Below are positions 1 to 9,266 of a DNA stretch of 64,000 bases, piece by piece (positions within the stretch are counted from its first letter, which is position 1; each line of letters starts with the position of its first letter). The DNA is from a virus. The stretch is from positions 27,080-91,079 of the IMG/VR virus record IMGVR_UViG_3300027782_000058; one strand, 5' to 3'. The position numbers were made by a program, and so were the translations under genes. Under the pieces are notes generated by a model. The model saw only the letters and a list, made by a program, of their open reading frames with translations. It was not told the origin of the DNA and did no database searches.

Positions 1-64
1 AGTTGTCATGCGTCGACCTTACTCGTGAATCGTATTCGAAGTCGAGCGAGCGGGCGGAGAACGA

Positions 65-76
65 GAAAAAATCTTT
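65..76 (-). repeat. A/T element copy 1 (GAAAAAATCTTT)
   Basis: First of 11 copies of a 12-13 bp element with an A-tract and a T-tract found between genes of the left arm. Here it also serves as the T-tract of a minus-strand terminator and lies in the loop of a 10-bp perfect inverted repeat. Confidence 0.7.
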
Positions 77-95
77 ACTCCGCCCGCCGGGCGGC
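65..95 (-). terminator. Terminator after the 39-aa gene
   Basis: Read on the minus strand, a CCGCCC-GGC-GGGCGG hairpin (81-95) is followed by AGTAAAG and six T residues (66-71), a good intrinsic terminator just past the stop codon. A larger inverted repeat (arms 50-59 and 78-87, ten perfect pairs) also encloses the A/T stretch. Confidence 0.7.
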
Positions 96-215
96 TCACT
101 TTTTCGGTTCTGTCTTCTTCTTGGCTGCAGCGGGCTTTGCCGCCTGAGGAGTTTTTTCAGGGGCGGGCTTAGTCGCGCCGGGCATGTCTTGCGCGCGGAA
201 GTTGGTTTGGGCCAT
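96..215 (-). CDS. Small basic Ala/Pro/Lys-rich protein, 39 aa
   Basis: A 39-residue minus-strand ORF with an ATG at 215, preceded at good distance by AAGGGAGG and followed directly by a strong terminator. These flanks are why it is called. The product starts MAQTNFRAQDMPG and then becomes a low-complexity tail of Ala, Pro and Lys ending in KKKTEPKK, so it is strongly basic and probably disordered. It may bind nucleic acid, but no family is recognised. The inverted repeat at 258-273 upstream resembles the 5'-end hairpins of neighbouring units, but no convincing -10 box lies at the expected distance, so its promoter is unclear. Confidence 0.6.
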   Translation of the reverse strand: MAQTNFRAQDMPGATKPAPEKTPQAAKPAAAKKKTEPKK

Positions 216-257
216 GAGGGCACCTCCCTTCCTAACTTCGATGGGCATGTCAGAATC

Positions 258-273
258 GTACCGTTTTCGGTAC
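258..273 (-). other. Leader-type stem-loop upstream of the 39-aa gene
   Basis: GTACCG-TTTT-CGGTAC is a perfect 6-bp inverted repeat with a 4-nt loop. On the minus strand the loop is AAAA, like the loops of the 5'-end hairpins in the plus-strand units. No TANNNT box is found 8-9 nt upstream. Confidence 0.4.
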
Positions 274-296
274 TGTTCTGCCTTGACATGACAAGG

Positions 297-322
297 CCCC
301 CACTCCCCGAGAGGAGTGAGGG
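297..322 (-). terminator. Terminator after the 119-aa gene
   Basis: On the minus strand CCCTCACTCC and GGAGTGGGGG pair around a TCTCG-like loop, 17 nt after the stop of the gene at 339-698. The sequence then runs into CCTTGTCATG, so the T-tract is weak. Confidence 0.55.
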
Positions 323-338
323 CTTGTCAGGGTGACGG

Positions 339-698
339 TCAGAGTTGGACCAGTCGTCCTAGGTCAAGCACGCGCTGCATGAGCGCGCCCCATGAGCAGT
401 AGTAGTGCATCCCGTACGCGGACCGCGTGCGGGGGTTGTAGGTCCAAGTGGAGTAGGTGTCCACCTTGCTAGGGGCCTCACCGTCGTTCACGGCGTAGGC
501 GTCCTTGAGGGCGATGCCGCACGCGGCACACGGGCGGTCGCCCGCCTCGCCATCGTTCGGCATGTGGAGCATGAACGTCTTACGCATGCGCCGTGCGCCT
601 TCCGCGAGTGCGGCAAACGTGTCCGCCTCATGGTACGCCTTAGCCCCGGTAGTCCACGGCTTGCGGAAGCCGGGGCGGGTAGTGGTCGAAGTCTTCAC
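339..698 (-). CDS. Hypothetical protein with a CxxC motif, 119 aa
   Basis: GTG start at 698, chosen because CTAGGGAGG lies just upstream on the minus strand, the same binding site used by the plus-strand units. The protein has RPCAACG near residue 58 and HYYCSWG near residue 100, which could be two halves of a zinc-binding site. The middle is rich in Asp, Tyr and Thr. No family is recognised. It is the only well-formed minus-strand unit in the array: it has its own promoter (747-775), a 5'-end hairpin CCGGG-AAAAC-CCCGG (723-737) and a terminator, exactly mirroring the plus-strand plan. It is divergent from the next gene. Confidence 0.8.
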   Translation of the reverse strand: MKTSTTTRPGFRKPWTTGAKAYHEADTFAALAEGARRMRKTFMLHMPNDGEAGDRPCAACGIALKDAYAVNDGEAPSKVDTYSTWTYNPRTRSAYGMHYYCSWGALMQRVLDLGRLVQL

Positions 699-746
699 TG
701 TCTCACCTCCCTAGGGTGTCTGCCGGGGTTTTCCCGGTCAGGAGTA

Positions 747-775
747 AAACTACCCTAGATCGAGTCAAAAGTCAA
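747..775 (-). promoter_or_regulatory. Minus-strand early promoter
   Basis: On the minus strand TTGACT (770-775), a 17-nt spacer and TAGTTT (747-752). Nine nt later a CCGGG/CCCGG stem-loop (723-737) would form at the RNA 5' end. Confidence 0.75.
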
Positions 776-789
776 ATCGAGGGTAGGAC

Positions 790-818
790 TTGCGAATGTC
801 AGAGAACTAGGGTACTCT
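790..818 (+). promoter_or_regulatory. Early promoter for the 76-aa gene
   Basis: TTGCGA (790-795), 17-nt spacer, TACTCT (813-818), then a CCCCG-AAGACA-CGGGG hairpin at 828-843. It is divergent from the minus-strand promoter at 747-775. Confidence 0.75.
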
Positions 819-861
819 GATCCCATACCCCGAAGACACGGGGCAGAACTAGGGAGGCACA

Positions 862-1092
862 ATGTTCACTGAAGTCAACTTCATCATCGACGTTTGCACT
901 GACTGCTACGTCGCCGCCGCTGGAGTCGGGGACGCGGGTGAGACTCCCGAGTACGCCCCCCTCGCTCACTTCGACGGGCAGGGTACGGCAGTGCCCACTG
1001 AGGAAGGGGAGGGCCACTTCAGCAATCACGGGTGCCCCGGATGCGGGTCACCCCTTGCGGGGCAACGCTTTGAGGTCACGGTTCTGAACTAG
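862..1092 (+). CDS. Small zinc-ribbon-like protein, 76 aa
   Basis: ATG at 862 follows ACTAGGGAGGCACA, the standard binding site of this array. The product has a CTDC pair near residue 12 and a CPGC pair near residue 58, spaced like the two knuckles of a zinc ribbon, separated by an acidic and glycine-rich stretch. Family not recognised. It forms its own unit with promoter 790-818 and terminator 1105-1126. Small CxxC proteins recur in this array (also at 3512 and 5961), as is common among phage early proteins that bind host factors. That role is only an inference here. Confidence 0.8.
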   Translation: MFTEVNFIIDVCTDCYVAAAGVGDAGETPEYAPLAHFDGQGTAVPTEEGEGHFSNHGCPGCGSPLAGQRFEVTVLN

Positions 1093-1104
1093 GCGCGAGA
1101 GGTT

Positions 1105-1126
1105 GCCCCGGCCTACGGGTCGGGGC
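1105..1126 (+). terminator. Terminator
   Basis: GCCCCGGCC-TAC-GGGTCGGGGC hairpin 12 nt after the stop codon, followed by TTCCCG. The stem is strong and the T-tract poor, as usual in high-GC genomes. Confidence 0.65.
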
Positions 1127-1163
1127 TTCCCGCCCCCGTCAGGAAACAATTCCGGCGTAAGAC

Positions 1164-1192
1164 TTGCGATCCGATCCAAAGTAGGGTATCTT
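1164..1192 (+). promoter_or_regulatory. Early promoter for the 71-aa gene
   Basis: TTGCGA (1164-1169), 17-nt spacer, TATCTT (1187-1192), then a GCCCC-AAACG-GGGGC hairpin at 1202-1216 beginning 9 nt after the -10. Confidence 0.8.
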
Positions 1193-1234
1193 CGTACTAC
1201 CGCCCCAAACGGGGGCCAAACTAGGGAGGTCACA

Positions 1235-1450
1235 ATGCACACACTCATCACCCCCACCCTCACCCTCGCGGGCACCGTTTACTCGGTGTCTGAGCAGTAC
1301 GAGTCCCCTGCGGCTCACTTCACTACCCGCGAGGCTGCAGTGGCCCACGCGGAAGCCCTTAACGCCGCCTACCGGGGTCGATTCAATGACTGTCTTGGCG
1401 ACGACTACTACCCCACGTTCGCGGTGGGGGAGGTCAAGGTCTACTCCTGA
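1235..1450 (+). CDS. Hypothetical protein, 71 aa
   Basis: ATG at 1235 is chosen over an upstream in-frame start because CTAGGGAGG (1221-1229) and the promoter with its hairpin lie immediately before it; a longer reading would start inside the terminator of the preceding gene. The sequence has YSVSEQYESPAAHF followed by a short alpha-helical part (TTREAAVAHAEALNAAY), then an acidic patch DCLGDDYYP. No family recognised. Its terminator is at 1463-1489. Confidence 0.8.
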   Translation: MHTLITPTLTLAGTVYSVSEQYESPAAHFTTREAAVAHAEALNAAYRGRFNDCLGDDYYPTFAVGEVKVYS

Positions 1451-1462
1451 CCACTGGCACGC

Positions 1463-1489
1463 GCCCCCCGGCCATACGGTCGGGGGGGC
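1463..1489 (+). terminator. Terminator
   Basis: GCCCCCC and GGGGGGC arms around GGCCATACGGTC, followed by ATTC. Strong stem, weak T-tract. Confidence 0.65.
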
Positions 1490-1518
1490 ATTCACAACGA
1501 CAGAAGGAAGTGATCACA

Positions 1519-1878
1519 ATGCAGAACCCAGTGACATTCACGCCCACTGAGGCCGTGATCCTCACTCACCGGCTAGAGGCCCCTGACGCTATCGCTGAAG
1601 CCCTCTCTGACGGCGGGGCACCGTGGACCTACGCGGCCATCGAGGAACGCGCCACCGCCATCCTCTCGGGCTGGAGGGGAGGCAAGTCCCTGACCGTCGA
1701 CATGGGCGACTCGCTCACCCGCGCCATCATCGAGGACTGTTGTGATGGCAGTGTGTTCTTCGCCGCGATGGAGTACGCGGTCGACTACGGAGAAATTACC
1801 CCCGCAAAGGCGCGACACCTTGAGCAAGCGGCGACCACGCTGGAAGCCAAGACGGGGGTGCCGGTTCCACTCGGATAG
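1519..1878 (+). CDS. Hypothetical protein, 119 aa
   Basis: ATG at 1519 lies 8 nt after GAAGGAAG (1503-1510). An in-frame GTG at 1510 overlaps that site and is less likely. The product is acidic and probably mostly helical (EAVILTHRLEAP, AYAAIEERATAIL-like stretch, ITPAKARHLEQAATTLEAKTG). Family not recognised. Unlike its neighbours it has no recognisable promoter or 5' hairpin, so it probably depends on read-through past the terminator at 1463-1489. A strong terminator follows at 1896-1922. Confidence 0.8.
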   Translation: MQNPVTFTPTEAVILTHRLEAPDAIAEALSDGGAPWTYAAIEERATAILSGWRGGKSLTVDMGDSLTRAIIEDCCDGSVFFAAMEYAVDYGEITPAKARHLEQAATTLEAKTGVPVPLG

Positions 1879-1895
1879 CCGCGCGCCTAGCGAGA

Positions 1896-1922
1896 AGCCT
1901 CATCCCTACGGGGGATGGGGCT
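1896..1922 (+). terminator. Terminator with T-tract
   Basis: AGCCTCATCC and GGATGGGGCT arms with loop CTACGGG, followed by TTTCG. Confidence 0.75.
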
Positions 1923-1957
1923 TTTCGCATTCCCGTCGCGAGTCGAGGACGCCGCCG

Positions 1958-1969
1958 GAAAAAATCTTT
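1958..1969 (-). repeat. A/T element copy 2 (GAAAAAATCTTT)
   Basis: Identical 12-mer to copy 1, flanked by short arms CGAGG and CCTCG, between a terminator and the next promoter. Confidence 0.7.
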
Positions 1970-2027
1970 GCCTCGCCCCCGCGCGGCCCCGCCCCCGGAC
2001 GAATGGAAAGGCTTCACTCGAAAGAAC

Positions 2028-2055
2028 TTGACACCTGTCATAGGACTGGTATAAG
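2028..2055 (+). promoter_or_regulatory. Early promoter for the DUF4258-like gene
   Basis: TTGACA (2028-2033), 16-nt spacer, TATAAG (2050-2055). This unit lacks the strong 5' hairpin of the others, having only ATCCC-AGAGA-GGGGT. Confidence 0.7.
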
Positions 2056-2100
2056 GTGTGTATACATCCCAGAGAGGGGTGCCACTAGGGAGGTGGGAAG

Positions 2101-2385
2101 TTGCAGTACCGAATCACTCACCACGCGGCTCGTCAGGCCGCAGTCAAGGGGTTCGCCATCGACGCCGTGATCCGAGCGGCTCAATCCCCGAGCATCACTT
2201 ACCCGAGCGGGAAGCGTCACCCCGGTCAGGTCCGTCACATTCGTGACGGCATCGTCGCCGTCGTGGACCCCGTGACGGCAACGGTTGTCACGGTCTACGA
2301 GAACGTGCGGGAGACCGCGCTACGTCCCGATCAGCGCGACCCGGTGGCGCTGGAGTACGGCAGGCAGTGGGGCAAGCGGCACTGA
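2101..2385 (+). CDS. DUF4258-like small protein, 94 aa
   Basis: TTG start at 2101, seven nt after AGGGAGG (2087-2093). The product begins MQYRITHHAARQAAVKGFAI and later has VAVVDPVTATVVTVYEN. This matches my memory of the DUF4258 pattern (T-x-H-A-x3-R near the N-terminus, then a PSGKRHPGQVRHI stretch and a VVTVY strand), a fold related to RelE/YoeB-type toxins. Whether it is a ribonuclease or only a scaffold is unknown. No antitoxin-like partner lies beside it, because both neighbours are separate units. Terminator at 2398-2425. Confidence 0.7.
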   Translation: MQYRITHHAARQAAVKGFAIDAVIRAAQSPSITYPSGKRHPGQVRHIRDGIVAVVDPVTATVVTVYENVRETALRPDQRDPVALEYGRQWGKRH

Positions 2386-2397
2386 CTGACTGAGAGG

Positions 2398-2425
2398 GAG
2401 GCCCCCACCTACGGGTGGGGGTCTC
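2398..2425 (+). terminator. Terminator
   Basis: GAGGCCCCCACC-TAC-GGGTGGGGGTCTC, about twelve base pairs, followed by CCGTTTG. Confidence 0.75.
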
Positions 2426-2447
2426 CCGTTTGTCAGGGGACCCAAAC

Positions 2448-2476
2448 TTGACAGGCAAGGTAGATAGGCGTATTCT
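2448..2476 (+). promoter_or_regulatory. Early promoter for the 114-aa gene
   Basis: TTGACA (2448-2453), 17-nt spacer, TATTCT (2471-2476). No GC-rich 5' hairpin follows. Confidence 0.75.
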
Positions 2477-2516
2477 TTGAGAGTTGGACTCACCACACAG
2501 ACAAGGGAGAACCGAA

Positions 2517-2861
2517 ATGACGACCACCACCGTCCTCGAACTTGTGGAGGACTACATGCAGGCAATCCGCGAGGCTACGGCCAAGTACTACGCGGACAAC
2601 TACCACCACCTTCAGCCCCCGATGATCTATGCGGAGCCGGGTCGCCGGTTCGCCCGCATCGTGATGGAAGGCTCGAATCAGCGTACGGTCCACGCTTTCG
2701 TGGACATGGAGACCGGCGACGTGATCAAGGCTGCAGGCTGGAAGGCCCCGCAGAAGGACAAGGACGGCCTCGCGGTTCGCTACCACCTCGCCGATGAGGC
2801 TGATCGCGCGCGGTGCTACGCGGCCATCGACCCTCACGGTGGATACCTCTACAAGTGGTAG
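2517..2861 (+). CDS. Conserved small phage protein, 114 aa
   Basis: ATG at 2517 follows CAAGGGAGAACCGAA. After a helical N-terminus (VLELVEDYMQAIREA), the core has EPGRRFARIVMEG, QRTVHAFVDMETGDVIKAAGW and ends GGYLYKW. I recognise this as a pattern common in small proteins of actinobacterial phages (a FxKIV strand, a QRSVHAFVD strand and a KAAGWKAP turn), but no function is known to me. It forms its own unit with promoter 2448-2476 and terminator 2877-2898. Confidence 0.85.
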   Translation: MTTTTVLELVEDYMQAIREATAKYYADNYHHLQPPMIYAEPGRRFARIVMEGSNQRTVHAFVDMETGDVIKAAGWKAPQKDKDGLAVRYHLADEADRARCYAAIDPHGGYLYKW

Positions 2862-2876
2862 CCCTCACGAAGTACG

Positions 2877-2898
2877 GCCCCCACCTACGGGTGGGGGC
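2877..2898 (+). terminator. Terminator with T-tract
   Basis: GCCCCCACC-TAC-GGGTGGGGGC followed by TTTTCG. Confidence 0.8.
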
Positions 2899-2942
2899 TT
2901 TTCGTTTTCGCGCGACGGGAGGACTGGTAACCCTCTCGCCGA

Positions 2943-2970
2943 AAGGCCCTCGCCGAAAGGCGGGGGCCTT
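2943..2970 (+). terminator. Second, tandem terminator
   Basis: AAGGCCCTCGCC-GAAA-GGCGGGGGCCTT, about 45 nt after the first terminator and before the next promoter. No gene lies between the two. Confidence 0.75.
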
Positions 2971-3007
2971 TTCGCGTGCGAATGCGGGCCGGGTGATGGG
3001 AGGTGGC

Positions 3008-3020
3008 GAAACTTTTTTTC
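3008..3020 (+). repeat. A/T element copy 3 (GAAACTTTTTTTC)
   Basis: The element in the opposite orientation (A3-C-T7) between a terminator and the promoter at 3058. Confidence 0.6.
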
Positions 3021-3057
3021 CGGTCATCGCGCGCGAGGTCGCTACGCGCGGGACAAC

Positions 3058-3086
3058 TTGACACTCGGTAGGATGTTCGATAAGGT
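3058..3086 (+). promoter_or_regulatory. Early promoter for the 82-aa gene
   Basis: TTGACA (3058-3063), 17-nt spacer, TAAGGT (3081-3086), then hairpin CGCCC-AACCG-GGGCG at 3095-3109. Confidence 0.8.
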
Positions 3087-3128
3087 AGGACTACCGCCCA
3101 ACCGGGGCGCACAACCTAGGGAGTCGAA

Positions 3129-3377
3129 ATGTCCGTCACCACCGTCACCACCTACGCAATCTCCTACACCGCCACTAACCGTAGCGGCGCGGTCCACACC
3201 TACGTTCTGTCAGACCTTGACACCGCCGGTATCGGCGAGGTCATCGCTTCCATGTACGCGCAACGGGATGACTGGTACTGCCGCAACGTCACCATTGCCA
3301 CGATGGGCGGTCAGGTTGTCTACACGTTCGATGGCACCCCGCACGCCGCTACCGTGGCGAGCGTTCTCTCTCGCTAG
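3129..3377 (+). CDS. Hypothetical protein, 82 aa, paralogue of the 45-aa protein at 5694
   Basis: ATG at 3129 follows CCTAGGGAGTCGAA. The stretch YAISYTATN, the LSDLDTAGIGEVIASMY helix and the NVTIATM strand align by eye with FAIAYTVNT, LSGLDSQGLIDAVLYSA and NVTVSS of the 45-residue product at 5694-5831, so the two are probably duplicates. No family recognised. The C-terminal third (GGQVVYTFDGTPHA) is missing from the shorter copy. Own promoter and terminator. Confidence 0.8.
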   Translation: MSVTTVTTYAISYTATNRSGAVHTYVLSDLDTAGIGEVIASMYAQRDDWYCRNVTIATMGGQVVYTFDGTPHAATVASVLSR

Positions 3378-3394
3378 TCACGTCCTAGGCCCCG

Positions 3395-3421
3395 GCCCTC
3401 ACCCTGCGAAAGGGTGGGGGC
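3395..3421 (+). terminator. Terminator
   Basis: GCCCTCACCCT-GCGA-AAGGGTGGGGGC, 17 nt after the stop; no T-tract. Confidence 0.7.
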
Positions 3422-3471
3422 TGGCTGGCTTTCCGGCCCATATCGCCATGCGGCGGGCTAGATACAATGGC

Positions 3472-3497
3472 TTGACATTCCTTGCGCGCCCTACCCT
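3472..3497 (+). promoter_or_regulatory. Possible weak promoter for the 56-aa gene
   Basis: TTGACA (3472-3477) is clear, but the nearest -10-like box, TACCCT (3492-3497), leaves only a 14-nt spacer. No CTAGGGAGG or hairpin follows. Confidence 0.3.
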
Positions 3498-3511
3498 GCC
3501 GGAGGCCCACC

Positions 3512-3682
3512 GTGCCGTTTCGCACGTCGTGCGAGCAATGCGAGGGAGTCGCCACCGTGCTAGTGGCGGGCGGTCGCGCGCACGCGCAATGCCTGCCGCT
3601 GCCGGTGGACTTGACGCGGCTCGCTGCCATGCCGCGACTTCCGGATGGGATCCCGTGGCGGTGCCCGTGGTGCGGCGCTTGA
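3512..3682 (+). CDS. Small zinc-ribbon protein, 56 aa
   Basis: GTG start at 3512, eight nt after GGAGG (3500-3504). The protein begins MPFRTSCEQCEG and ends PWRCPWCGA, so two CxxC knuckles sit close to the two ends with about 40 residues between them, the classic spacing of a zinc ribbon. Function unknown. The stop codon overlaps the A/T element at 3681-3693. This unit departs from the array plan, because it has a different ribosome binding site, no hairpin and a doubtful promoter. Confidence 0.65.
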   Translation: MPFRTSCEQCEGVATVLVAGGRAHAQCLPLPVDLTRLAAMPRLPDGIPWRCPWCGA

Positions 3683-3693
3683 AACTTTTTTTC
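3681..3693 (+). repeat. A/T element copy 4 (GAAACTTTTTTTC)
   Basis: Overlaps the stop codon of the 56-aa gene. The T7 run could act as a terminator T-tract, but the preceding stem is weak. Confidence 0.55.
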
Positions 3694-3749
3694 CTCACCT
3701 ACGCGCACACGGCAGGACATCGGGAGTGCTCGGGCTACCGCGACTTCGA

Positions 3750-3824
3750 GACTTTGCGCGAAAGTCTGCCGTAAGGCTCTCAGACTTGACATGACTTGAC
3801 GCATAGGGCTCTCATGACTTGACA
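3750..3824 (+). promoter_or_regulatory. Inverted and direct repeats before the DUF6011 gene
   Basis: GACTTT (3750-3755) and AAAGTC (3761-3766) form an inverted repeat. GGCTCTCA occurs at 3775 and again at 3807, 32 bp apart, each followed by ACTTGAC sites, giving TTGAC at 3786, 3796 and 3819. It looks like a regulator site or stacked -35 boxes in front of the promoter at 3819. Confidence 0.4.
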
Positions 3825-3846
3825 AACGTTCGGATTCGAGTAAACT
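3819..3846 (+). promoter_or_regulatory. Early promoter for the DUF6011-like gene
   Basis: TTGACA (3819-3824), 16-nt spacer, TAAACT (3841-3846), then hairpin CGGCCC-ACAAG-GGGCCG at 3855-3871. Confidence 0.8.
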
Positions 3847-3890
3847 GGGCACACCGGCCCACAAGGGGCCGCAACCGAAGGGACACCGAC

Positions 3891-4421
3891 ATGACCACCT
3901 ACGCCCCCCGCACCCGCGTCGCCCGCCCCGCGACCGACCGTCAGGTTGCGTACGCCGAGGCGCTGCTGCTGCAGGTCACCGGCCCTGACAACTTTGACGA
4001 GGCCCGCCTCGCGCTCGCCGAGCGGGGTGGACTCGCCACGGTTGACGCGGCGTCGCGCACTATCGACGCCCTGCGGACGCAGGCCGCTGCCATGCGGACG
4101 CAGGCCCCTCGCGCCGCTGCCCCTCGCGCCGCTGCCACTGAGGCCCTCGCACTGGGCATGTACCGCCGTGACGGTGAGGTCTACCGCGTAGTCGCCTCGC
4201 GGGCCGGTCGCCCGTACGCTAAGCGCCTTGACCCGGCCACGGGTAAGTTTGACTACGCGGCGGGCGCGATCCGCACGCTCACCGCTGCGGACCGTATGAG
4301 CCTCTCCGAGGCTGCCGAGTACGGTCGGGCCATCGGTCGGTGTTGCGTATGTGGCGCGACGCTCACCGACCCCGAGTCGGTCGCCCGTGGCATCGGCCCC
4401 GTGTGCGGGGGGCGAGTCTGA
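3891..4421 (+). CDS. DUF6011-like protein, 176 aa
   Basis: ATG at 3891 follows CCGAAGGGACACCGAC. The C-terminus (residues ~148-176) reads CCVCGATLTDPES then GIGPVCGG. This CxxCG-x-L-x-D-x2-S followed by GIGPxC is the signature I know for DUF6011, a short presumed zinc-binding domain of phage proteins. The N-terminus (RPATDRQVAYAEALL) resembles a segment often found in DUF6011 proteins. The middle has an Ala/Arg/Pro low-complexity part including a perfect 15-nt tandem duplication around 4107-4137. Function unknown. Own promoter, hairpin and terminator (4437-4465). Confidence 0.8.
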   Translation: MTTYAPRTRVARPATDRQVAYAEALLLQVTGPDNFDEARLALAERGGLATVDAASRTIDALRTQAAAMRTQAPRAAAPRAAATEALALGMYRRDGEVYRVVASRAGRPYAKRLDPATGKFDYAAGAIRTLTAADRMSLSEAAEYGRAIGRCCVCGATLTDPESVARGIGPVCGGRV

Positions 4422-4436
4422 GGCCCCGAGCGCGAG

Positions 4437-4465
4437 AGGCCCCATCCCTTCGGGGGTGGGGCCTT
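4437..4465 (+). terminator. Terminator
   Basis: AGGCCCCATCCC-TTCG-GGGGTGGGGCCTT, with a stable tetraloop-like turn, 16 nt after the stop. Confidence 0.8.
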
Positions 4466-4509
4466 CGTCATGTCGTGCGGATCACGCGCGAGCGGCGAGC
4501 GGCAGGCGA

Positions 4510-4521
4510 GAAAAAATCTTT
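4510..4521 (-). repeat. A/T element copy 5 (GAAAAAATCTTT)
   Basis: Lies in the loop of an inverted repeat with arms GGCAGG (4501-4506) and CCTGCC (4524-4529). Confidence 0.7.
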
Positions 4522-4591
4522 GCCCTGCCCCCGTCGGGCGTGGAGTCGCGAGAGGTCGCGCGAGTGGTGAGATTCCCTTCCGAGATTCGAC

Positions 4592-4620
4592 TTGACATGC
4601 CGCACGAGGTACGTCATACT
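4592..4620 (+). promoter_or_regulatory. Early promoter for the 81-aa gene
   Basis: TTGACA (4592-4597), 17-nt spacer, CATACT (4615-4620), then hairpin GCCGC-AAGGC-GCGGC at 4629-4643. Confidence 0.8.
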
Positions 4621-4662
4621 GGAGGCATGCCGCAAGGCGCGGCAGCACCTAGGGAGGCAATC

Positions 4663-4908
4663 ATGACCGACTACACCACGATCACCGGAACCCGCGAGGG
4701 TGTTCGCGCCTACTACTCCGAGATTGCCCCCGGAGTGTGGGAGGCGGAGATTGAGTGGCAGGACGACTACGCTCGCGGTGTCTGGCACAACGCCGGTTGC
4801 GTTACGTTCACCAGTGAGCCCGACCTCGCCGCCATCGTGAGCGCGGTACAGTCCTACTGCTCCGATCAATACGACCGCGAAATGGAGTACCGCTCCACAA
4901 AACACTGA
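4663..4908 (+). CDS. Hypothetical protein, 81 aa
   Basis: ATG at 4663 follows CCTAGGGAGGCAATC. The long upstream in-frame extension is rejected because it would run through the terminator and promoter. The protein is acidic, with alternating strands (VRAYYSEIAPGVWEAEIEW) and a C-terminal helix ending in CSDQYDREMEYR. No family recognised. It sits in a textbook unit: promoter, 5' hairpin, binding site, gene, terminator (4918-4948). Confidence 0.8.
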   Translation: MTDYTTITGTREGVRAYYSEIAPGVWEAEIEWQDDYARGVWHNAGCVTFTSEPDLAAIVSAVQSYCSDQYDREMEYRSTKH

Positions 4909-4917
4909 CACCCGAAA

Positions 4918-4948
4918 GATGCCCCGCCCCGAAAGGGTGCGGGGCATC
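4918..4948 (+). terminator. Very strong terminator
   Basis: GATGCCCCGC and GCGGGGCATC arms plus an inner CCC-GAAA-GGG, then TTTGCG. Confidence 0.85.
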
Positions 4949-4999
4949 TTTGCGTTTGGGATTGACAATCCGGCGCGCGAGGGGCACCGCCGCACCGTG

Positions 5000-5011
5000 G
5001 AAAAAATCTTT
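5000..5011 (-). repeat. A/T element copy 6 (GAAAAAATCTTT)
   Basis: Loop of CCGTGG (4995-5000) and CCACGG (5014-5019), with outer arms ACCGC and GCGGT extending the interrupted stem. Confidence 0.7.
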
Positions 5012-5068
5012 GCCCACGGGGCGGTCGGGAGTCGCGCGCGGACTGCGAACCATGCCGATGCACTTGAC

Positions 5069-5096
5069 TTGACACTGCCTTAGATCCGAGTAAACT
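5069..5096 (+). promoter_or_regulatory. Early promoter for the 112-aa gene
   Basis: TTGACA (5069-5074), 16-nt spacer, TAAACT (5091-5096), then hairpin GCCCC-GGCAG-GGGGC at 5106-5120. A second TTGACT lies 5 nt upstream. Confidence 0.8.
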
Positions 5097-5138
5097 GGGA
5101 CTACCGCCCCGGCAGGGGGCCACACCTAGGGAGACCAA

Positions 5139-5477
5139 ATGTCCACTGTCATCGCCACCGCCACCCCCACGTCCGCCGCTATCTCGGACGGCATCGTGCG
5201 GGCAAGTGTCGACCTTATGGGACGCAACCGTGAGGGGCGTCAGGAATGGCGCTACAGCATCGCCTGCGAGTCCGAGGCTCAGACTGGCACCGACCTGCGG
5301 ACGGGAGTTGGGGCCACAGAGACTGGCGTCGACATGCTCCGTACCCTCGCGGGATTCCTCGCGGCACACTCCGAGTCCTCCGAGGGCGGCGAGTGTGCGG
5401 ACCTGTTCGATATCTCGCGAGAGGCTACGGAGGCCATCTCCGAGGTCATCTACTACGCGGTCGGGTGGGATGCCTGA
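5139..5477 (+). CDS. Hypothetical protein, 112 aa
   Basis: ATG at 5139 follows CCTAGGGAGACCAA. The protein is acidic and looks two-part: an N-terminal beta-rich half (VRASVDLMGRNREGRQEWRYSI) and a helical half (VDMLRTLAGFLAAHSES, then EATEAISEVIYYAVGWDA). No motif or family recognised. Own promoter with hairpin, and terminator 5491-5524. Confidence 0.8.
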   Translation: MSTVIATATPTSAAISDGIVRASVDLMGRNREGRQEWRYSIACESEAQTGTDLRTGVGATETGVDMLRTLAGFLAAHSESSEGGECADLFDISREATEAISEVIYYAVGWDA

Positions 5478-5490
5478 CCCGAACGTTCTG

Positions 5491-5524
5491 AAAGGCCCCG
5501 CATCCGAAAGAGCGCGGGGCCTTT
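5491..5524 (+). terminator. Terminator with T-tract
   Basis: AAAGGCCCCGC and GCGGGGCCTTT perfect 11-bp arms with loop ATCCGAAAGA. Confidence 0.8.
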
Positions 5525-5557
5525 CGCATTGCGCGGGGAGCGCGCGCGGTGGAATCG

Positions 5558-5569
5558 GAAAAAATCTTT
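5558..5569 (-). repeat. A/T element copy 7 (GAAAAAATCTTT)
   Basis: Flanked by GCGGT (5546-5550) and ACCGC (5572-5576), between a terminator and the next promoter. Confidence 0.7.
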
Positions 5570-5621
5570 AGACCGCCGCCCCGCCCGTCGCCACGCGCCC
5601 ATCGCCCGGTCCCGATAGAAC

Positions 5622-5650
5622 TTGACAACGCTCGCAGAATCCGGCATACT
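5622..5650 (+). promoter_or_regulatory. Early promoter for the 45-aa gene
   Basis: TTGACA (5622-5627), 17-nt spacer, CATACT (5645-5650), then hairpin GCCGC-AGGGA-GCGGC at 5659-5673. Confidence 0.8.
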
Positions 5651-5693
5651 AGATCCATGCCGCAGGGAGCGGCACTAATCAAGGGAGACTGAA

Positions 5694-5831
5694 ATGACCT
5701 TCGCAATCGCCTACACCGTGAACACCGAGAACATCGTCCTGTCGGGCCTTGACTCGCAGGGGCTTATCGATGCCGTGCTCTACTCGGCTCAATACGGCCC
5801 CATCACGAACGTCACGGTGTCGTCCTACTGA
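5694..5831 (+). CDS. Tiny hypothetical protein, 45 aa
   Basis: ATG at 5694 follows CAAGGGAGACTGAA. The 45-residue product (begins MTFAIAYTVN, ends NVTVSSY) looks like a short version of the 82-residue protein at 3129: both have an AI-x-YT strand, an LD-x2-G helix and an NVT strand. It is called because the complete unit surrounds it: promoter, 5' hairpin, binding site and terminator. No family recognised. Confidence 0.75.
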   Translation: MTFAIAYTVNTENIVLSGLDSQGLIDAVLYSAQYGPITNVTVSSY

Positions 5832-5845
5832 CAGGCACCGCGCGA

Positions 5846-5871
5846 GACCCCGGCCCTTACGGGTCGGGGTC
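5846..5871 (+). terminator. Terminator with T-tract
   Basis: GACCCCG and CGGGGTC arms with inner GCCC-TTAC-GGGT, followed by TTTCG. Confidence 0.75.
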
Positions 5872-5889
5872 TTTCGCTTTCTAGGGGGC

Positions 5890-5917
5890 TTGACAACGTG
5901 ACTCAAACTAGTAGACT
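5890..5917 (+). promoter_or_regulatory. Early promoter for the two-gene unit 5961-6406
   Basis: TTGACA (5890-5895), 16-nt spacer, TAGACT (5912-5917), then hairpin GCCCCG-ATACG-CGGGGC at 5926-5942. Confidence 0.8.
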
Positions 5918-5960
5918 GGGGCTACGCCCCGATACGCGGGGCCTGACCTAGGGAGTCACA

Positions 5961-6098
5961 ATGGCCGTTATGACCACAGAGTGGATCTGTTCCTCATGCC
6001 GTACCGTGTGGGTGAGTGAGGACTACCCGCTTTGCCCGGAGTGCCGCACGGATGAGTGCGCGCTCACGCGCGAGGCGTGGGTTAGGTGGGTACGATGA
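5961..6098 (+). CDS. Tiny zinc-ribbon protein, 45 aa
   Basis: ATG at 5961 follows CCTAGGGAGTCACA. The product has WICSSCRT near residue 10 and PLCPECRT near residue 25, a compact pair of CxxC knuckles typical of a rubredoxin-like or treble-clef zinc site, followed by DECALTREAWVRW. Its stop overlaps the next start (ATGA), so the two proteins are translationally coupled and may act together. This is the only two-gene unit of the array. Function unknown. Confidence 0.75.
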   Translation: MAVMTTEWICSSCRTVWVSEDYPLCPECRTDECALTREAWVRWVR

Positions 6099-6406
6099 CC
6101 ACCACCCGCAACGCAAACGCCGCTATCGCGTCGTGCGAGACGTTCCGCGCGTCGGCCCTGTCGGGAGTCACCACGGTGCCCGGTGCGGGTCGCCTTGACG
6201 GTGCCGACCGTGATCGGTTCTACGCCGACCGGGACGCTATCGCCTACGCGGTTATGTCCTACGGCACGCCTATCGCGTGGCTCACGCCGCGCGGGTGGCA
6301 CGTCGTGGGCCAGCGTTTCAGCGTCACCACTTCACGACACCAGAGCGTCACCTTGCGGGGCGTGCGCGAGTGGTGCGAACGGTCGGGAGTCACTTGCGTT
6401 TGGTGA
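6095..6406 (+). CDS. Hypothetical protein, 103 aa, coupled to the zinc-ribbon protein
   Basis: ATG at 6095 overlaps the upstream stop as ATGA, which decides the start over an in-frame GTG at 6086. The protein has DRDRFYADRDAIAYAVMSYGTPIAW then RGWHVVGQRFSVTTSRHQ, and ends in REWCERSGVTCVW. The middle part resembles short phage proteins with a YGTPIAWxTxxGWxV strand pair, but I cannot name the family. Terminator at 6424-6459. Confidence 0.8.
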   Translation: MTTTRNANAAIASCETFRASALSGVTTVPGAGRLDGADRDRFYADRDAIAYAVMSYGTPIAWLTPRGWHVVGQRFSVTTSRHQSVTLRGVREWCERSGVTCVW

Positions 6407-6423
6407 CCCGCTAGCCTCCGAGT

Positions 6424-6459
6424 GAGAGCCCTGCCCCGTTTGAGGGGGGTGGGGCTCTC
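6424..6459 (+). terminator. Terminator
   Basis: GAGAGCCC-TG-CCCC and GGGG-GGT-GGGGCTCTC, a long stem with small bulges and loop GTTTGA. Confidence 0.75.
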
Positions 6460-6491
6460 GCCGTTTCGCGCGCGGCGTGCGGGCGCTCGAC

Positions 6492-6504
6492 GAAAAAAAT
6501 CTTT
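6492..6504 (-). repeat. A/T element copy 8 (GA7TCTTT)
   Basis: Same element with one extra A. Flanking arms are weak here. Confidence 0.6.
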
Positions 6505-6648
6505 ACCCCCCCGGTGTTTGGCTCGACGGACTACCGAGAGGTGGTCGGGGTCTTCACTTGTCTCCCGGCGGGGTGCGGGGCGGGGCGCGCCCACCCGTGA
6601 CGCTCTCGGGGCGCTATCAAACCGTGACCTAGAAACTTGCGGGAAGTG

Positions 6649-6677
6649 TTGACAGTCTCCCCAAACTCTGACAAACT
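6649..6677 (+). promoter_or_regulatory. Early promoter for the 35-aa gene
   Basis: TTGACA (6649-6654), 17-nt spacer, CAAACT (6672-6677), then hairpin GCCCC-AAACG-GGGGC at 6686-6700. The stretch 6505-6648 before it holds nothing recognisable. Confidence 0.75.
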
Positions 6678-6720
6678 AGAGGCATGCCCCAAACGGGGGC
6701 ACCACCTAGGGAGGCACCAA

Positions 6721-6828
6721 ATGTCACTCACCACCACCACCGCCTACACGGTCACTAGCCTCTGGGATGACGACCTAGAGGACGCACTCTGTGAGTGCGT
6801 TGCCGATGACTGCCCCCTAGATCACTAG
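6721..6828 (+). CDS. Tiny acidic Cys-containing protein, 35 aa
   Basis: ATG at 6721 follows CCTAGGGAGGCACCAA. The 35-residue product is very acidic (LWDDDLEDALCECVADDCPLDH at its C-terminus, with three Cys). It is called because the full unit surrounds it. The last codons and the stop lie inside a perfect 10-bp inverted repeat (6811-6834), so its C-terminal sequence is constrained by a terminator-like structure. Function unknown. Confidence 0.65.
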   Translation: MSLTTTTAYTVTSLWDDDLEDALCECVADDCPLDH

Positions 6829-6834
6829 GGGGCA
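6811..6834 (+). terminator. Palindrome over the stop codon
   Basis: TGCCCCCTAG-ATCA-CTAGGGGGCA, perfect 10-bp arms, includes the last codons and stop of the 35-aa gene and is followed within 9 nt by a second hairpin. Confidence 0.6.
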
Positions 6835-6842
6835 AGCGGGCA

Positions 6843-6864
6843 GGGGCACCCTACGGGGTGCCCC
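6843..6864 (+). terminator. Terminator with T-tract
   Basis: GGGGCACC-CTACGG-GGTGCCCC followed by TTTCG. Confidence 0.8.
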
Positions 6865-6900
6865 TTTCGTTGCCCGGCGGGGGTGCGCGGCGGGCGTCCG

Positions 6901-6913
6901 GAAACTTTTTTTC
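6901..6913 (+). repeat. A/T element copy 9 (GAAACTTTTTTTC)
   Basis: A3-C-T7 orientation, between the terminator at 6843 and the G-rich repeat at 6948. Confidence 0.6.
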
Positions 6914-6947
6914 GTGCCTCGCGCCCCAGCGGCACGGCACGGCCTAC

Positions 6948-6989
6948 GGCAGGGCAGGGCAGGGGCAGGGCAGGGCAGGGCAGGGGGGT
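6948..6989 (+). repeat. G-rich pentamer repeat (GGGCA)n
   Basis: Six G-runs of three or four separated by CA, ending in six G residues. It could form a G-quadruplex on the plus strand. Lies just upstream of the promoter at 7035. Confidence 0.7.
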
Positions 6990-7034
6990 GACGATGACCG
7001 TTATAGAACCGTGACCAAAACTTGCGAGACTGGC

Positions 7035-7064
7035 TTGACACTTGGCAGGCAACTACGGTACTTT
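7035..7064 (+). promoter_or_regulatory. Early promoter for the 86-aa gene
   Basis: TTGACA (7035-7040), 18-nt spacer, TACTTT (7059-7064), then hairpin GCCGC-AAAGG-GCGGC at 7073-7087. Confidence 0.75.
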
Positions 7065-7106
7065 CGTTGTATGCCGCAAAGGGCGGCACCAACTAGGGAG
7101 GCACCA

Positions 7107-7367
7107 ATGTCCAACTACACCTTCACCACCAACACCCCGTTCGTCAACGTCTCTGTCGGTCCGCGTACCGATGTTGCTCAGTACATCTTCCACCTCGCCA
7201 ACGGGGACAGTATCAGCGTTCTCCCCGCCTACGACCCTGCCGACTTCGAGTCGGCGTACATCCCCGCCGGGGACACGTCCGGACGTTGGGATGTTCGTAG
7301 GTGGGACGGCACCGACGCCTCCCCTGAGAGCGTGGCCCTCGCGCACCTCGCGGCACTCACCGCCTGA
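7107..7367 (+). CDS. Hypothetical protein, 86 aa
   Basis: ATG at 7107 follows ACTAGGGAGGCACCA. The protein looks beta-rich (YTFTTNTPFVNVSVGPRTD, then YIFHLANGDSISVLPAYD) with a C-terminal helix (ESVALAHLAALTA). No family recognised. It forms a standard unit ending at terminator 7380-7409. Confidence 0.8.
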   Translation: MSNYTFTTNTPFVNVSVGPRTDVAQYIFHLANGDSISVLPAYDPADFESAYIPAGDTSGRWDVRRWDGTDASPESVALAHLAALTA

Positions 7368-7379
7368 CCCTCGCTCACT

Positions 7380-7409
7380 GGAAGGCCCTCGCTACGGCGG
7401 GGGCCTTCC
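7380..7409 (+). terminator. Terminator
   Basis: GGAAGGCCCTCGC-TACG-GCGGGGGCCTTCC, 13-bp stem with one mismatch. Confidence 0.8.
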
Positions 7410-7415
7410 TCATGC

Positions 7416-7447
7416 GGCAGGGCGGCAGGGCGGCAGGGCGGCAGGGC
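7416..7447 (+). repeat. Tandem octamer GGCAGGGC x4
   Basis: Four perfect copies (7416-7423, 7424-7431, 7432-7439, 7440-7447) between a terminator and the A/T element at 7457. Also G-quadruplex-prone. Confidence 0.85.
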
Positions 7448-7456
7448 GGGGCCTCC

Positions 7457-7468
7457 CGAAAAAGTTTG
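7457..7468 (-). repeat. A/T element copy 10 (CGAAAAAGTTTG)
   Basis: Diverged, shortened copy, 11 nt upstream of the promoter at 7479. Confidence 0.45.
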
Positions 7469-7478
7469 CCGGTAGGTC

Positions 7479-7507
7479 TTGCCATCCGATTCGAAGTACG
7501 GTACTTT
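7479..7507 (+). promoter_or_regulatory. Early promoter for the 75-aa gene
   Basis: TTGCCA (7479-7484), 17-nt spacer, TACTTT (7502-7507), then hairpin GCCCC-AAAA-GGGGC at 7517-7530. Confidence 0.75.
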
Positions 7508-7554
7508 TACCTCAGCGCCCCAAAAGGGGCCACAACCTAACCTAGGGAGACACA

Positions 7555-7782
7555 ATGACCACCACCGCCACCCGCCCCACCCCCACTACCAAGACCGTTT
7601 CCGTTGCCGTTCACCCTAGCGGCGAGTGTTTCGTCGTCACCCGGATCGATGGGTTTTACGACGCGGGTAACGGCTTCCGCGACCGTTCATTCTGGGAGGT
7701 TGTGTTCACCCTCAAGCGGGCAGGCGGGGACGTGCTGCACAAGGTGCCGAACCGCCACTACCGCCCGTGTGAGTGCGGGTAG
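7555..7782 (+). CDS. Hypothetical protein, 75 aa
   Basis: ATG at 7555 follows CCTAGGGAGACACA. After a Thr/Pro-rich start the protein is beta-rich (KTVSVAVHPSGECFVVTRI, then SFWEVVFTLKRAGGDVLHK) and ends HYRPCECG, a Cys pair at the very end. No family recognised. It is the last complete unit of the array. Terminator 7796-7827. Confidence 0.8.
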   Translation: MTTTATRPTPTTKTVSVAVHPSGECFVVTRIDGFYDAGNGFRDRSFWEVVFTLKRAGGDVLHKVPNRHYRPCECG

Positions 7783-7795
7783 TCCGCACCACGGC

Positions 7796-7827
7796 GAGAG
7801 GCCCCGCCCGGAAGGGTGGGGCCTCTC
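7796..7827 (+). terminator. Terminator
   Basis: GAGAGGCCCC-G-CCC-GGAA-GGG-T-GGGGCCTCTC, about 13 bp. Confidence 0.8.
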
Positions 7828-7835
7828 GCATGTCG

Positions 7836-7898
7836 GGCTCACGGCTCACGGCCTACGGCTCACGGCCTACGGCTCACGGCTCACGGCCTACGGCCTAC
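7836..7898 (+). repeat. Tandem heptamer array, nine units
   Basis: Nine contiguous heptamers of form GGCYYAC: GGCTCAC (A) and GGCCTAC (B) in the order AABABAABB. It sits where the promoter, hairpin and ribosome binding site of the next unit would be expected. Confidence 0.9.
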
Positions 7899-7905
7899 GG
7901 CCCCC

Positions 7906-8068
7906 CGTACTTACGGTCACCGCCCTCCCGGACGTGTGGCAGGCCCTGCAGCCTGCCGCCGGATGGCTCACTACCGCGTGGACTGTGGTCGACGGTGCGG
8001 GCCGTGAGTACCGTAGCGACTCCCCCGCCGACGCGGTGGCCTCTACAGGGCAGGAAGGTAGGCCCTAG
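7906..8068 (+). pseudogene. Headless remnant of a small early gene
   Basis: One frame reads as plausible protein (LTVTALPDVWQALQPAAG, then TTAWTVVDGAGREYRSDS, ending TGQEGRP) and is followed by a normal terminator (8081-8116). No promoter, 5' hairpin, CTAGGGAGG site or good start codon precedes it; upstream is the heptamer array. The simplest reading is a unit that lost its front half. A start at the in-frame GTG near 7929 is possible but has no binding site. Confidence 0.4.
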
Positions 8069-8080
8069 GCCCACGACTCG

Positions 8081-8116
8081 GAAGGCCCCGACACCCGCGA
8101 GGGAGTCGGGGTCTTT
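8081..8116 (+). terminator. Terminator with T-tract
   Basis: GGCCCCGAC and GTCGGGGTC arms, followed by TTTCG. It is the last terminator of the array. Confidence 0.7.
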
Positions 8117-8140
8117 CGTTGTGTCCATGCTCACGCGCAC

Positions 8141-8173
8141 TAACGCACGTTAACGCGCGTTAGCGCGCGTTAG
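8141..8173 (+). repeat. Decamer tandem repeat, palindromic
   Basis: TAACGCACGT, TAACGCGCGT, TAGCGCGCGT and TAGG run head to tail. Each unit is near-palindromic around CGCG, so several alternative hairpins can form. Confidence 0.75.
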
Positions 8174-8201
8174 GAATGAGCGACAGGACATGCCCCTATG
8201 C

Positions 8202-8290
8202 CCCTCAGAGAGGCTCTAGAGCATTAGAACACCCTCATCCTCATGTTCCCCCAGACTCACCCTGACAGGCCCTCAGAGAGGCTCTAGAGC
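8202..8290 (+). repeat. 21-bp direct repeat pair with internal palindrome
   Basis: The same 21 bases occur at 8202-8222 and 8270-8290, starting CCCTCAGAGAGG and ending in the palindrome GCTCTAGAGC. The spacing is 68 bp start to start. Confidence 0.85.
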
Positions 8291-8400
8291 CTCAGGGCAG
8301 GAAGGCAGGGCAGGAAGGTAGGGCAGGGGCTTCCTGTCGGGAGGTAGGGGCAGGGAGGCAGGGGCAGGCAGGCAGGGAGAGAGAGAGAGAGAGGGCAGGG
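8284..8400 (+). repeat. Purine-rich low-complexity tract
   Basis: Runs of GGGCA, GGAAGGCA and a (GA)8 stretch near 8379-8396. No start or stop pattern suggests coding on either strand. Confidence 0.75.
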
Positions 8401-8403
8401 ACA

Positions 8404-8590
8404 CTCGACAGGCTCACTCGACAGGCTCGACACACTCGACTGACCCTCGACTCGACTCGACTCACTCGACAGGCAGGCACTCGACTCGACTCACTCGACA
8501 GGCAGGCACTCGACTCGACTCACTCGACAGGCAGGCAGGCAGGCACTCGACTCGACACACTCGACACACTAGACATGGCCCTCGACAGGC
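8404..8590 (+). repeat. CTCGA-rich repeats including 29-bp tandem x3
   Basis: A perfect 29-bp unit (begins ACTCGACTCGACTCACTCG, ends GGCAGGC) occurs at 8450-8478, 8479-8507 and 8508-8536 without spacers, inside a larger field of CTCGA and GGCA repeats. Confidence 0.9.
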
Positions 8591-8599
8591 AGGAAGGCA

Positions 8600-8625
8600 G
8601 GCAGGGGAAAGGTTTTTTCCCTGCC
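8600..8625. terminator. Hairpin with A/T loop, possible bidirectional terminator
   Basis: GGCAGGG and CCCTGCC perfect 7-bp arms. The loop GAAAGGTTTTTT (8607-8618) is the 11th copy of the A/T element. It divides the repeat region from the iteron-like repeats and the structural operon. Confidence 0.55.
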
Positions 8626-8631
8626 CTAGTA

Positions 8632-8679
8632 TGTCCGTTTTGCTCTTGATGTCCGTTTTGATCCTTTCTGTCCGTTTTG
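8632..8679 (+). repeat. Three iteron-like 11-mers TGTCCGTTTTG
   Basis: Perfect copies at 8632-8642, 8650-8660 and 8669-8679 (18 and 19 bp apart), followed at once by TACGAAACG, which makes an inverted repeat CGTTT/AAACG with the last copy. Candidate operator or replication origin in front of the structural operon. Confidence 0.6.
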
Positions 8680-8764
8680 TACGAAACGATCAGGGGAGGC
8701 CCGCCACATAAGCAGAGCCCACTCACACGCCTAACGAATTTCAACTAAAGGTTCACTTTTTTGC

Positions 8765-8794
8765 TTGCATCGTCCAACTTCTTCGCCCTAGACT
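8765..8794 (+). promoter_or_regulatory. Leaderless promoter of the structural block
   Basis: TTGCAT (8765-8770), 18-nt spacer, TAGACT (8789-8794). Only 7 nt separate the -10 from the ATG at 8802 and there is no Shine-Dalgarno site, so the mRNA probably starts at or next to the start codon. Confidence 0.6.
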
Positions 8795-8801
8795 CATCCC
8801 C

Positions 8802-9266
8802 ATGACGCTTCCAGAAGAGGAGACCCTCCTCCTCCGCTCGCTCTCTCAACCAGACCTTCACCCGCGTCTGAAGGCGCTCAACTCCGTTGGCTGGCCGATC
8901 TCGACTCTCGCCAACGCACTCTCCCCCGCACGACCGAAGGCGACCGTCCACTACTGGATCTCCAGATGCCACACGTCCGACCGCCTCGACATCCCGCTCC
9001 CCCACCCCCTCAAGCGCGAGAAGGCAGCACGTCCAGTACGTCCAACCGTCTCCCCGGAGGACGCCGCCACGCTCCGCTCCCTGTCGCAACTCGCACGCCG
9101 CCACCGAGCCCGCCAGCGCCCCGACGCGCCTCAGGCCATCGCGTCCCGAGAACTCACCATCCTCGCCGCACAACTGAACTCCACGGGCGTGCCCACCGCC
9201 GCAATCGCCAAGGCGGCAGGAATTTCCTATCGCGCCATGCACAAAAGGATCACAAACTCTGGTTGA
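8802..9266 (+). CDS. Putative DNA-binding protein with two HTH-like segments, 154 aa
   Basis: ATG at 8802, apparently leaderless. The protein has two similar segments that read like helix-turn-helix units: residues ~22-50 (LKALNSVGWPISTLANAL) and residues ~122-150 (LAAQLNSTGVPTAAIAKAAG, then ISYRAMHKRI). The middle is basic and Pro-rich. By position, first in the late operon and a little before the portal, it could be a small terminase subunit, but no large subunit follows and the sequence gives no other support. A regulator that binds the nearby repeats is equally possible. Confidence 0.7.
   Translation: MTLPEEETLLLRSLSQPDLHPRLKALNSVGWPISTLANALSPARPKATVHYWISRCHTSDRLDIPLPHPLKREKAARPVRPTVSPEDAATLRSLSQLARRHRARQRPDAPQAIASRELTILAAQLNSTGVPTAAIAKAAGISYRAMHKRITNSG

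Follow-up and report, generated by a model that had tools for sequence, protein, structure and literature searches.

Stem-loops of freely varying sequence recur near the predicted 5′ ends of early messages in a phage of actinobacteria

Many early promoters of an actinobacterial phage are followed, at a nearly constant distance from the -10 element, by a short stem-loop whose arms have been changed many times while the fold was kept, which is strong evidence that a structure at the 5′ end of the message is under selection. The DNA in question is a window of 64,000 nucleotides (nt), positions 27080-91079 of the 91,079-base IMG/VR record IMGVR_UViG_3300027782_000058. The record is a tailed phage, by its portal, major head and tail genes, and a virus of actinobacteria. 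Between positions 700 and 7800 of the window there is a row of small genes, the majority with their own promoter. A typical early unit comprises a -35 element TTGACA or TTGCGA, a -10 element TAnnnT at a spacing of 16-18 nt, a short leader and a ribosome-binding Shine-Dalgarno (SD) site, which is CTAGGGAG in most units. The stem-loops lie in these leaders, and the element extends beyond the window and beyond this phage.

An earlier note, made from the letters alone, had listed twelve such hairpins in the window, and all twelve are present at the positions it gave. Their placement is as regular as the note claimed, although the distance from the -10 element to the hairpin is 7-9 nt rather than "8 or 9", the discrepancy being a single additional outer pair in some of the units. 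A thirteenth hairpin (2065-2081, with one G-U pair) had been overlooked. Thus, 13 of the 14 promoter units between 700 and 7560 carry the element, the sole exception being the unit at 2448 in front of gene 2517. About ten further hairpins are found in the 27 kb that precede the window in the record (at about 12.8, 13.4, 15.8, 19.0, 19.6, 20.5, 20.9, 21.3, 21.7 and 22.6 kb), where they adjoin units with unstructured A/C-rich leaders.

For counting, units were defined by the -35 and -10 elements, a ribosome site and an open frame, and structure was not consulted; a hairpin was scored if it had a stem of at least 5 base pairs (bp) and a loop of 4-6 nt, with the loop starting 11-15 nt past the -10 element. 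Hairpins were present in 18 of the 32 units of the record; 200 dinucleotide shuffles of the leaders averaged 0.69 and never exceeded 4. Loops of the record start 12-15 nt past the -10 element, with none elsewhere between 6 and 29 nt, and just 2.0% of positions in window 1-8700 have a perfect stem-loop at such an offset. When all 31 records of the comparison set were taken together, 55 of 357 units had a hairpin, as opposed to 3.6 in shuffled leaders. Among the relatives, the element was found in 13 of 31 units of IMG/VR record G009 (0.39 expected), 3 of 18 units of record G008 (0.04 expected), 5 of 50 units of Arthrobacter phage Mimi (0.45 expected) and 3 of 19 units of Microbacterium phage A3Wally (0.16 expected), with scattered single cases in others. 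Loops in the relatives start mainly 11-13 nt past the -10 element and in a few cases elsewhere; with the permitted loop length opened to 3-12 nt, the excess was limited to loops of ca. 3-7 nt. As to control phages outside the group, Jay2Jay had no hairpin in 13 units and phiC31 gave no unit. The signal lies in fixed position and covariation rather than in stability.

The differing but complementary arms had been taken in the earlier note as compensatory change, and this is borne out within genomes: the arms vary, and when hairpin units were made to swap the 3′ halves of their leaders, the hairpin was lost in 75% of chimeras made from the record and in 96% of those made from G009. Covariation in related genomes, a check that had been set beforehand, was also found, since homologous genes retain a hairpin in the same position with changed arms. 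The 615-amino-acid protein behind record position 15727 is preceded by GCCGC/GCGGC here and by CCCGT/ACGGG in G016 (54% over 614 amino acids), while the DUF6011 protein encoded at 3891 is preceded by CGGCCC/GGGCCG here and by GTGAAG/CTTCAC in IMG/VR record G003 (39% over 167 amino acids). Other homologous pairs are TAGGC/GCCTA in G016 and GTAAGC/GCTTAC in G019; TGTTGTA/TACAACA in G005 and TTGTTGGA/TCCAACAA in G006, with a T-A to G-C exchange; GGCAC/GTGCC in A3Wally and GCGC/GCGC in Zooman; and GGGG/CCCC in Cece and AGGAC/GTCCT in A3Wally. As the hairpin is kept while the letters change, the shape itself appears to matter. Because the arms vary, MAFFT alignments of the leaders gave misaligned stems, and in place of a covariance model the analysis relied on shuffles, arm swaps and pairs of orthologues. 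The orthologous leaders of Zooman (a Microbacterium phage, L085 15779) and L160 829 have an outer stem TTGTGCG/CGTACAA in common, and the Zooman loop holds an inserted second hairpin.

The position of the stem relative to the transcript was deduced from the promoter. A pyrimidine is present at nt 6 past the -10 element in 38 of 45 hairpin units, and nt 7 is A in 28 of 45, as it is in about half of the units lacking a hairpin. Start sites usually consist of a pyrimidine followed by A. Transcription most likely begins at the A seven nt past the -10 element, which would agree with the placement of the hairpin at the 5′ end of the RNA proposed in the earlier note. With that A as +1, most units would have a stem beginning 0-4 nt away from the 5′ end. 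In long leaders of the record and of G009 it is the distance between stem and SD that widens, to 10-30 nt, with the stem still close to the 5′ end. The view that the stem is tied to the 5′ end rests on these two genomes, because over all records both distances rise about equally.

Several observations point to a hairpin that acts as RNA rather than as a DNA operator. A lone non-Watson-Crick pair in an otherwise perfect stem is G-T in nine cases, two of which are one hairpin found in both Zooman and A3Wally, and A-C in a single case, which is a misplaced register. On the sense strand the loops are mostly purine-rich, as had been noticed earlier: 75% of loop bases are purines, and the first is A in 43 of 55 hairpins. 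Since G-U pairs are tolerated in the sense RNA only, the occurrence of G-T but hardly any A-C mismatches, together with sense-strand purine loops, favours RNA. No Rfam family matched at threshold in L004 and L005 or exceeded its gathering score in window 1-9000.

It is already known in principle that a stem-loop can protect the 5′ end of a messenger RNA (mRNA). In both E. coli and B. subtilis such structures stabilise mRNAs, and RppH of B. subtilis requires at least two unpaired 5′ nt (reviewed in PMC7509114, PMC3997798). The leaders described here resemble those of ompA, papA and B. subtilis aprE in having a stem-loop at the predicted 5′ end, probably with few unpaired nt, an SD behind it that is predicted to be open and a sequence that matters little; orthologous hairpins with different arms and the arm-swap control display just this combination of kept structure and free sequence. 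Unlike in ompA, papA and aprE, a leader module is repeated on many separate phage promoters and its fold is conserved across diverged genomes, while its effect on half-life is one we would expect by analogy. Among the three functions suggested in the earlier note, 5′-end protection fits best, whereas the variation of arms and loops makes a site for a sequence-specific protein less likely. We lean, though not strongly, towards 5′-end protection that would also, as a side effect, keep the SD free. Each unit would yield in vivo a short, mostly single-gene mRNA with a small stem-loop as its 5′ end (a stem of 5-7 bp and a purine-rich loop of mostly 4-6 nt, beginning 0-4 nt from the end). The triphosphorylated end would adjoin the duplex or sit within it, and decay that depends on the 5′ end, i.e., pyrophosphate removal, 5′-sensing RNase E and the 5′ exonuclease RNase J, would be hindered as in ompA, papA and aprE. 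The G/C-rich bases of the leader would be tied up in the hairpin, leaving the downstream CTAGGGAG site open, and the arm and loop sequences could vary almost at will, as nothing but the fold and its position would matter.

Several results weigh against 5′-end protection. The remaining 14 of the 32 units of the record have no hairpin, many of them with unstructured A/C-rich leaders; early units therefore do not all bear a hairpin, which corrects the earlier note, and the hairpin is not needed for expression. Homologous pairs with a hairpin in one member only (41) outnumber those with a hairpin in both (11). Among the 18 hairpin-bearing units of the record, 7 would have three 5′ nt left unpaired, which is at the edge of the protective range. 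A NUDIX protein that could link the hairpins to 5′-end chemistry was sought in the record and none was found. Finally, shuffle z-scores of folding energy range from -2.1 to +0.3, so that single leaders are unremarkable; G/C-rich leaders would fold anyhow, and these scores, being uninformative for such leaders, were dropped as evidence.

Of the other explanations, the one that survives best, if as a distinctly less probable one, is that the hairpin is a translational insulator, which mainly serves to tie up the G/C-rich leader and keep the SD single-stranded, with decay unaffected. Indeed, the predicted probability of an unpaired SD is 0.79 in the record, compared with 0.62 when the upstream sequence is shuffled, and is higher than in the shuffled control in 17 of 18 hairpin units; the corresponding values for G009 are 0.88 and 0.73, with 11 of 12 hairpin units higher. 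Units without a hairpin also tend to have unstructured A/C-rich leaders. Yet such a leader would serve equally well with no hairpin, relatives of lower G+C content (43-48%) have the hairpin too, and in the long leaders of the record and G009 it stays with the promoter and not with the SD.

A broader idea, to which we attach little probability, is that the hairpins are a shape-coded tag by which this clade of phages tells its early mRNAs apart from host mRNAs while mRNA decay is generally accelerated, whether 5′ protection suffices for this or a phage factor binds to the tag; they would then be an infection-wide structural "self" mark. Slightly more doubtful still is recognition of the stem and the A-first, purine-rich loop by a phage or host protein that marks or regulates early mRNAs. 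In addition to the bias at the first loop base, the closing pair is C-G in 33 of 55 hairpins, and seven hairpins across the record, on stems of differing sequence, share the loop AGGGA. Otherwise, the loops vary in length and sequence (42 distinct loops among the 55) and the arms vary freely. AGGGA has the same letters as the SD core; the hairpins with this loop are located at L005 358-386, 2755-2783, 6599-6627, 7487-7515, 7910-7938 and 8706-8734 and at window 5649-5677.

The fixed distance from the -10 element would also suit a nascent hairpin that affects promoter escape, pausing or antitermination, and HK022 put RNA provides a precedent: this RNA, located near early promoters, suppresses termination in cis; its sequence is conserved and its two stems are larger. 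The hairpins described here are likewise located close to early promoters, but their stems are smaller and their arms have no conserved sequence such as put has. Moreover, a G/C-rich inverted repeat that ends in a T-rich tail lies behind several early units, an arrangement in which antitermination would make little sense. An intrinsic terminator or attenuator would have a U tract right after the stem; in the units an A/C-rich spacer and the SD follow, with no T run. We consider control of early transcription improbable. Finally, although some arm families recur in the record (GCCCC, GCCGC and TCGGC), it is highly improbable that the hairpins are DNA operators or chance G/C-rich palindromes near promoters, since a repressor operator needs the same arms at every site, whereas these differ among units and covary, since neither the G-T over A-C mismatches nor the strand-specific purine loops would be expected of DNA, and since 55 hairpins stand against 3.6 expected.

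Two other phage systems invite comparison. The T7 gene 10 (phi10) leader is a phage mRNA, made by the phage RNA polymerase, with a hairpin right at +1. The early mRNAs described here would likewise open with a hairpin; in T7 gene 10, however, the hairpin is tied to the promoter sequence, while here the promoters are of the sigma-70 type and the arms change from unit to unit. The start-associated sequences (SAS) and extended SAS (ESAS) that cluster K mycobacteriophages carry are recognised by their conserved sequence (13-bp and 17-bp repeats), with inverted repeats in ESAS (PMC3203893). They too are repeated elements in front of many small actinophage genes. The earlier note had set the hairpins apart from such repeats as being structural; SAS and ESAS keep their sequence, and the hairpins keep their structure while the sequence varies. 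The 13-bp SAS GGGATAGGAGCCC, an element of start codons, gave one match with two mismatches in the 64 kb (1.47 expected), no more than chance would give, and none at the units. In the first 20 kb of Mimi (L211), 15 of 50 units have the SD itself as part of a loop, closed by a small stem that covaries (GTCC-TAGGA-GGAC, GGC-TTAGGAG-GCC, GTTC-TTAGGAG-GAAC), compared with 4.4 in the swap control, and this form resembles GGGATAGGAGCCC.

A literature search that covered few subscription journals retrieved no description of such a modular leader in actinophages. Little is known of mRNA decay in infected actinobacteria, and a problem that tends to be addressed with one or two mRNAs gains many natural replicates here. 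As there are cultured carriers (Arthrobacter phage Mimi, Microbacterium phages A3Wally and Cece), the element is directly testable, and the leaders could become parts for stable expression in actinobacteria.

The promoter units of the early gene row are listed in Table 1.

Table 1. Early promoter units of the window; elements are followed by their positions, and hairpins are written as 5′ arm-loop-3′ arm.
Unit (strand)	-35	-10	Inferred +1	Hairpin	SD	Gene
723..775 (-)	TTGACT 775-770	TAGTTT 752-747		CCGGG-aaaac-CCCGG 737-723		698-339
790..861 (+)	TTGCGA 790	TACTCT 813	825	CCCCG-aagaca-CGGGG 828-843	CTAGGGAG	862-1092
1164..1234 (+)	TTGCGA 1164	TATCTT 1187	1199	GCCCC-aaacg-GGGGC 1202-1216		1235-1450
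2028..2100 (+)	TTGACA 2028	TAAGGT 2052	2064	CATCCC-agaga-GGGGTG 2065-2081 (one G-U pair)		2101-2385
2448..2516 (+)	TTGACA 2448	TATTCT		no 5′ hairpin		2517-2861 (DUF7717)
3058..3128 (+)	TTGACA 3058	TAAGGT 3081	3093	CGCCC-aaccg-GGGCG 3095-3109		3129-3377
3819..3890 (+)	TTGACA 3819	TAAACT 3841	3853	CGGCCC-acaag-GGGCCG 3855-3871		3891-4421 (DUF6011)
4592..4662 (+)	TTGACA 4592	CATACT 4615	4627	TGCCGC-aaggc-GCGGCA 4628-4644		4663-4908
5069..5138 (+)	TTGACA 5069	TAAACT 5091	5103	GCCCC-ggcag-GGGGC 5106-5120		5139-5477
5622..5693 (+)	TTGACA 5622	CATACT 5645	5657	TGCCGC-aggga-GCGGCA 5658-5674		5694-5831
5890..5960 (+)	TTGACA 5890	TAGACT 5912	5924	GCCCCG-atacg-CGGGGC 5926-5942		5961-6098
6649..6720 (+)	TTGACA 6649	CAAACT 6672	6684	TGCCCC-aaacg-GGGGCA 6685-6701		6721-6828
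7035..7106 (+)	TTGACA 7035	TACTTT 7059	7071	TGCCGC-aaagg-GCGGCA 7072-7088		7107-7367
7479..7554 (+)	TTGCCA 7479	TACTTT 7502	7514	GCCCC-aaaa-GGGGC 7517-7530		7555-7782

The capsid protein of the record is closest to that of Actinomycetia phage DSL-LC01 (76%), followed by those of Microbacterium, Arthrobacter and Gordonia phages with genomes of 100-195 kb and of ca. 70 IMG/VR contigs. Although DSL-LC01 is thus the named phage with the most similar capsid protein, it was ruled out as a supplier of homologous units: its units have no hairpin, a promoter of another type (GATTCTAAAGATGTTATAATAGAATCA) and unstructured leaders. The early genes of DSL-LC01 (L080 24200-36500) have a common promoter with a dyad around the -10 element (GATTC...GAATC) and unstructured ACGACGAAAGGA leaders. 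No close DNA relative of window 1-9000 was found in the phage collection, and the IMG/VR protein scan returned one distant locus for the DUF6011 gene and none for the DUF7717 gene. When the collection was scanned for the hairpin together with CTAGGGAG, the sole other contig retrieved was the 42.5-kb record L230 (IMGVR_UViG_2974695397_000001), with one unit alike. At 3630-3700 of that record, CCGCCC-atcgg-GGGCGG is followed by CTAGGGAG and precedes a gene for a 337-amino-acid protein without a Pfam match.

Two kinds of repeats accompany the early genes. An A/T repeat element (AAAAAATCTTT or AAACTTTTTTT) is present upstream of many units, mostly 49-155 nt before the -35 element; it occurs in the window at 65, 1958, 3009, 3682, 4510, 5000, 5558, 6494, 6902 and 7459, and has 23 copies across the whole record, compared with 0.025 in mononucleotide shuffles. 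At 8340-8590 of the window, densely packed short repeats (CTCGACAGGCAGGCA and similar) separate the early genes from the structural genes.

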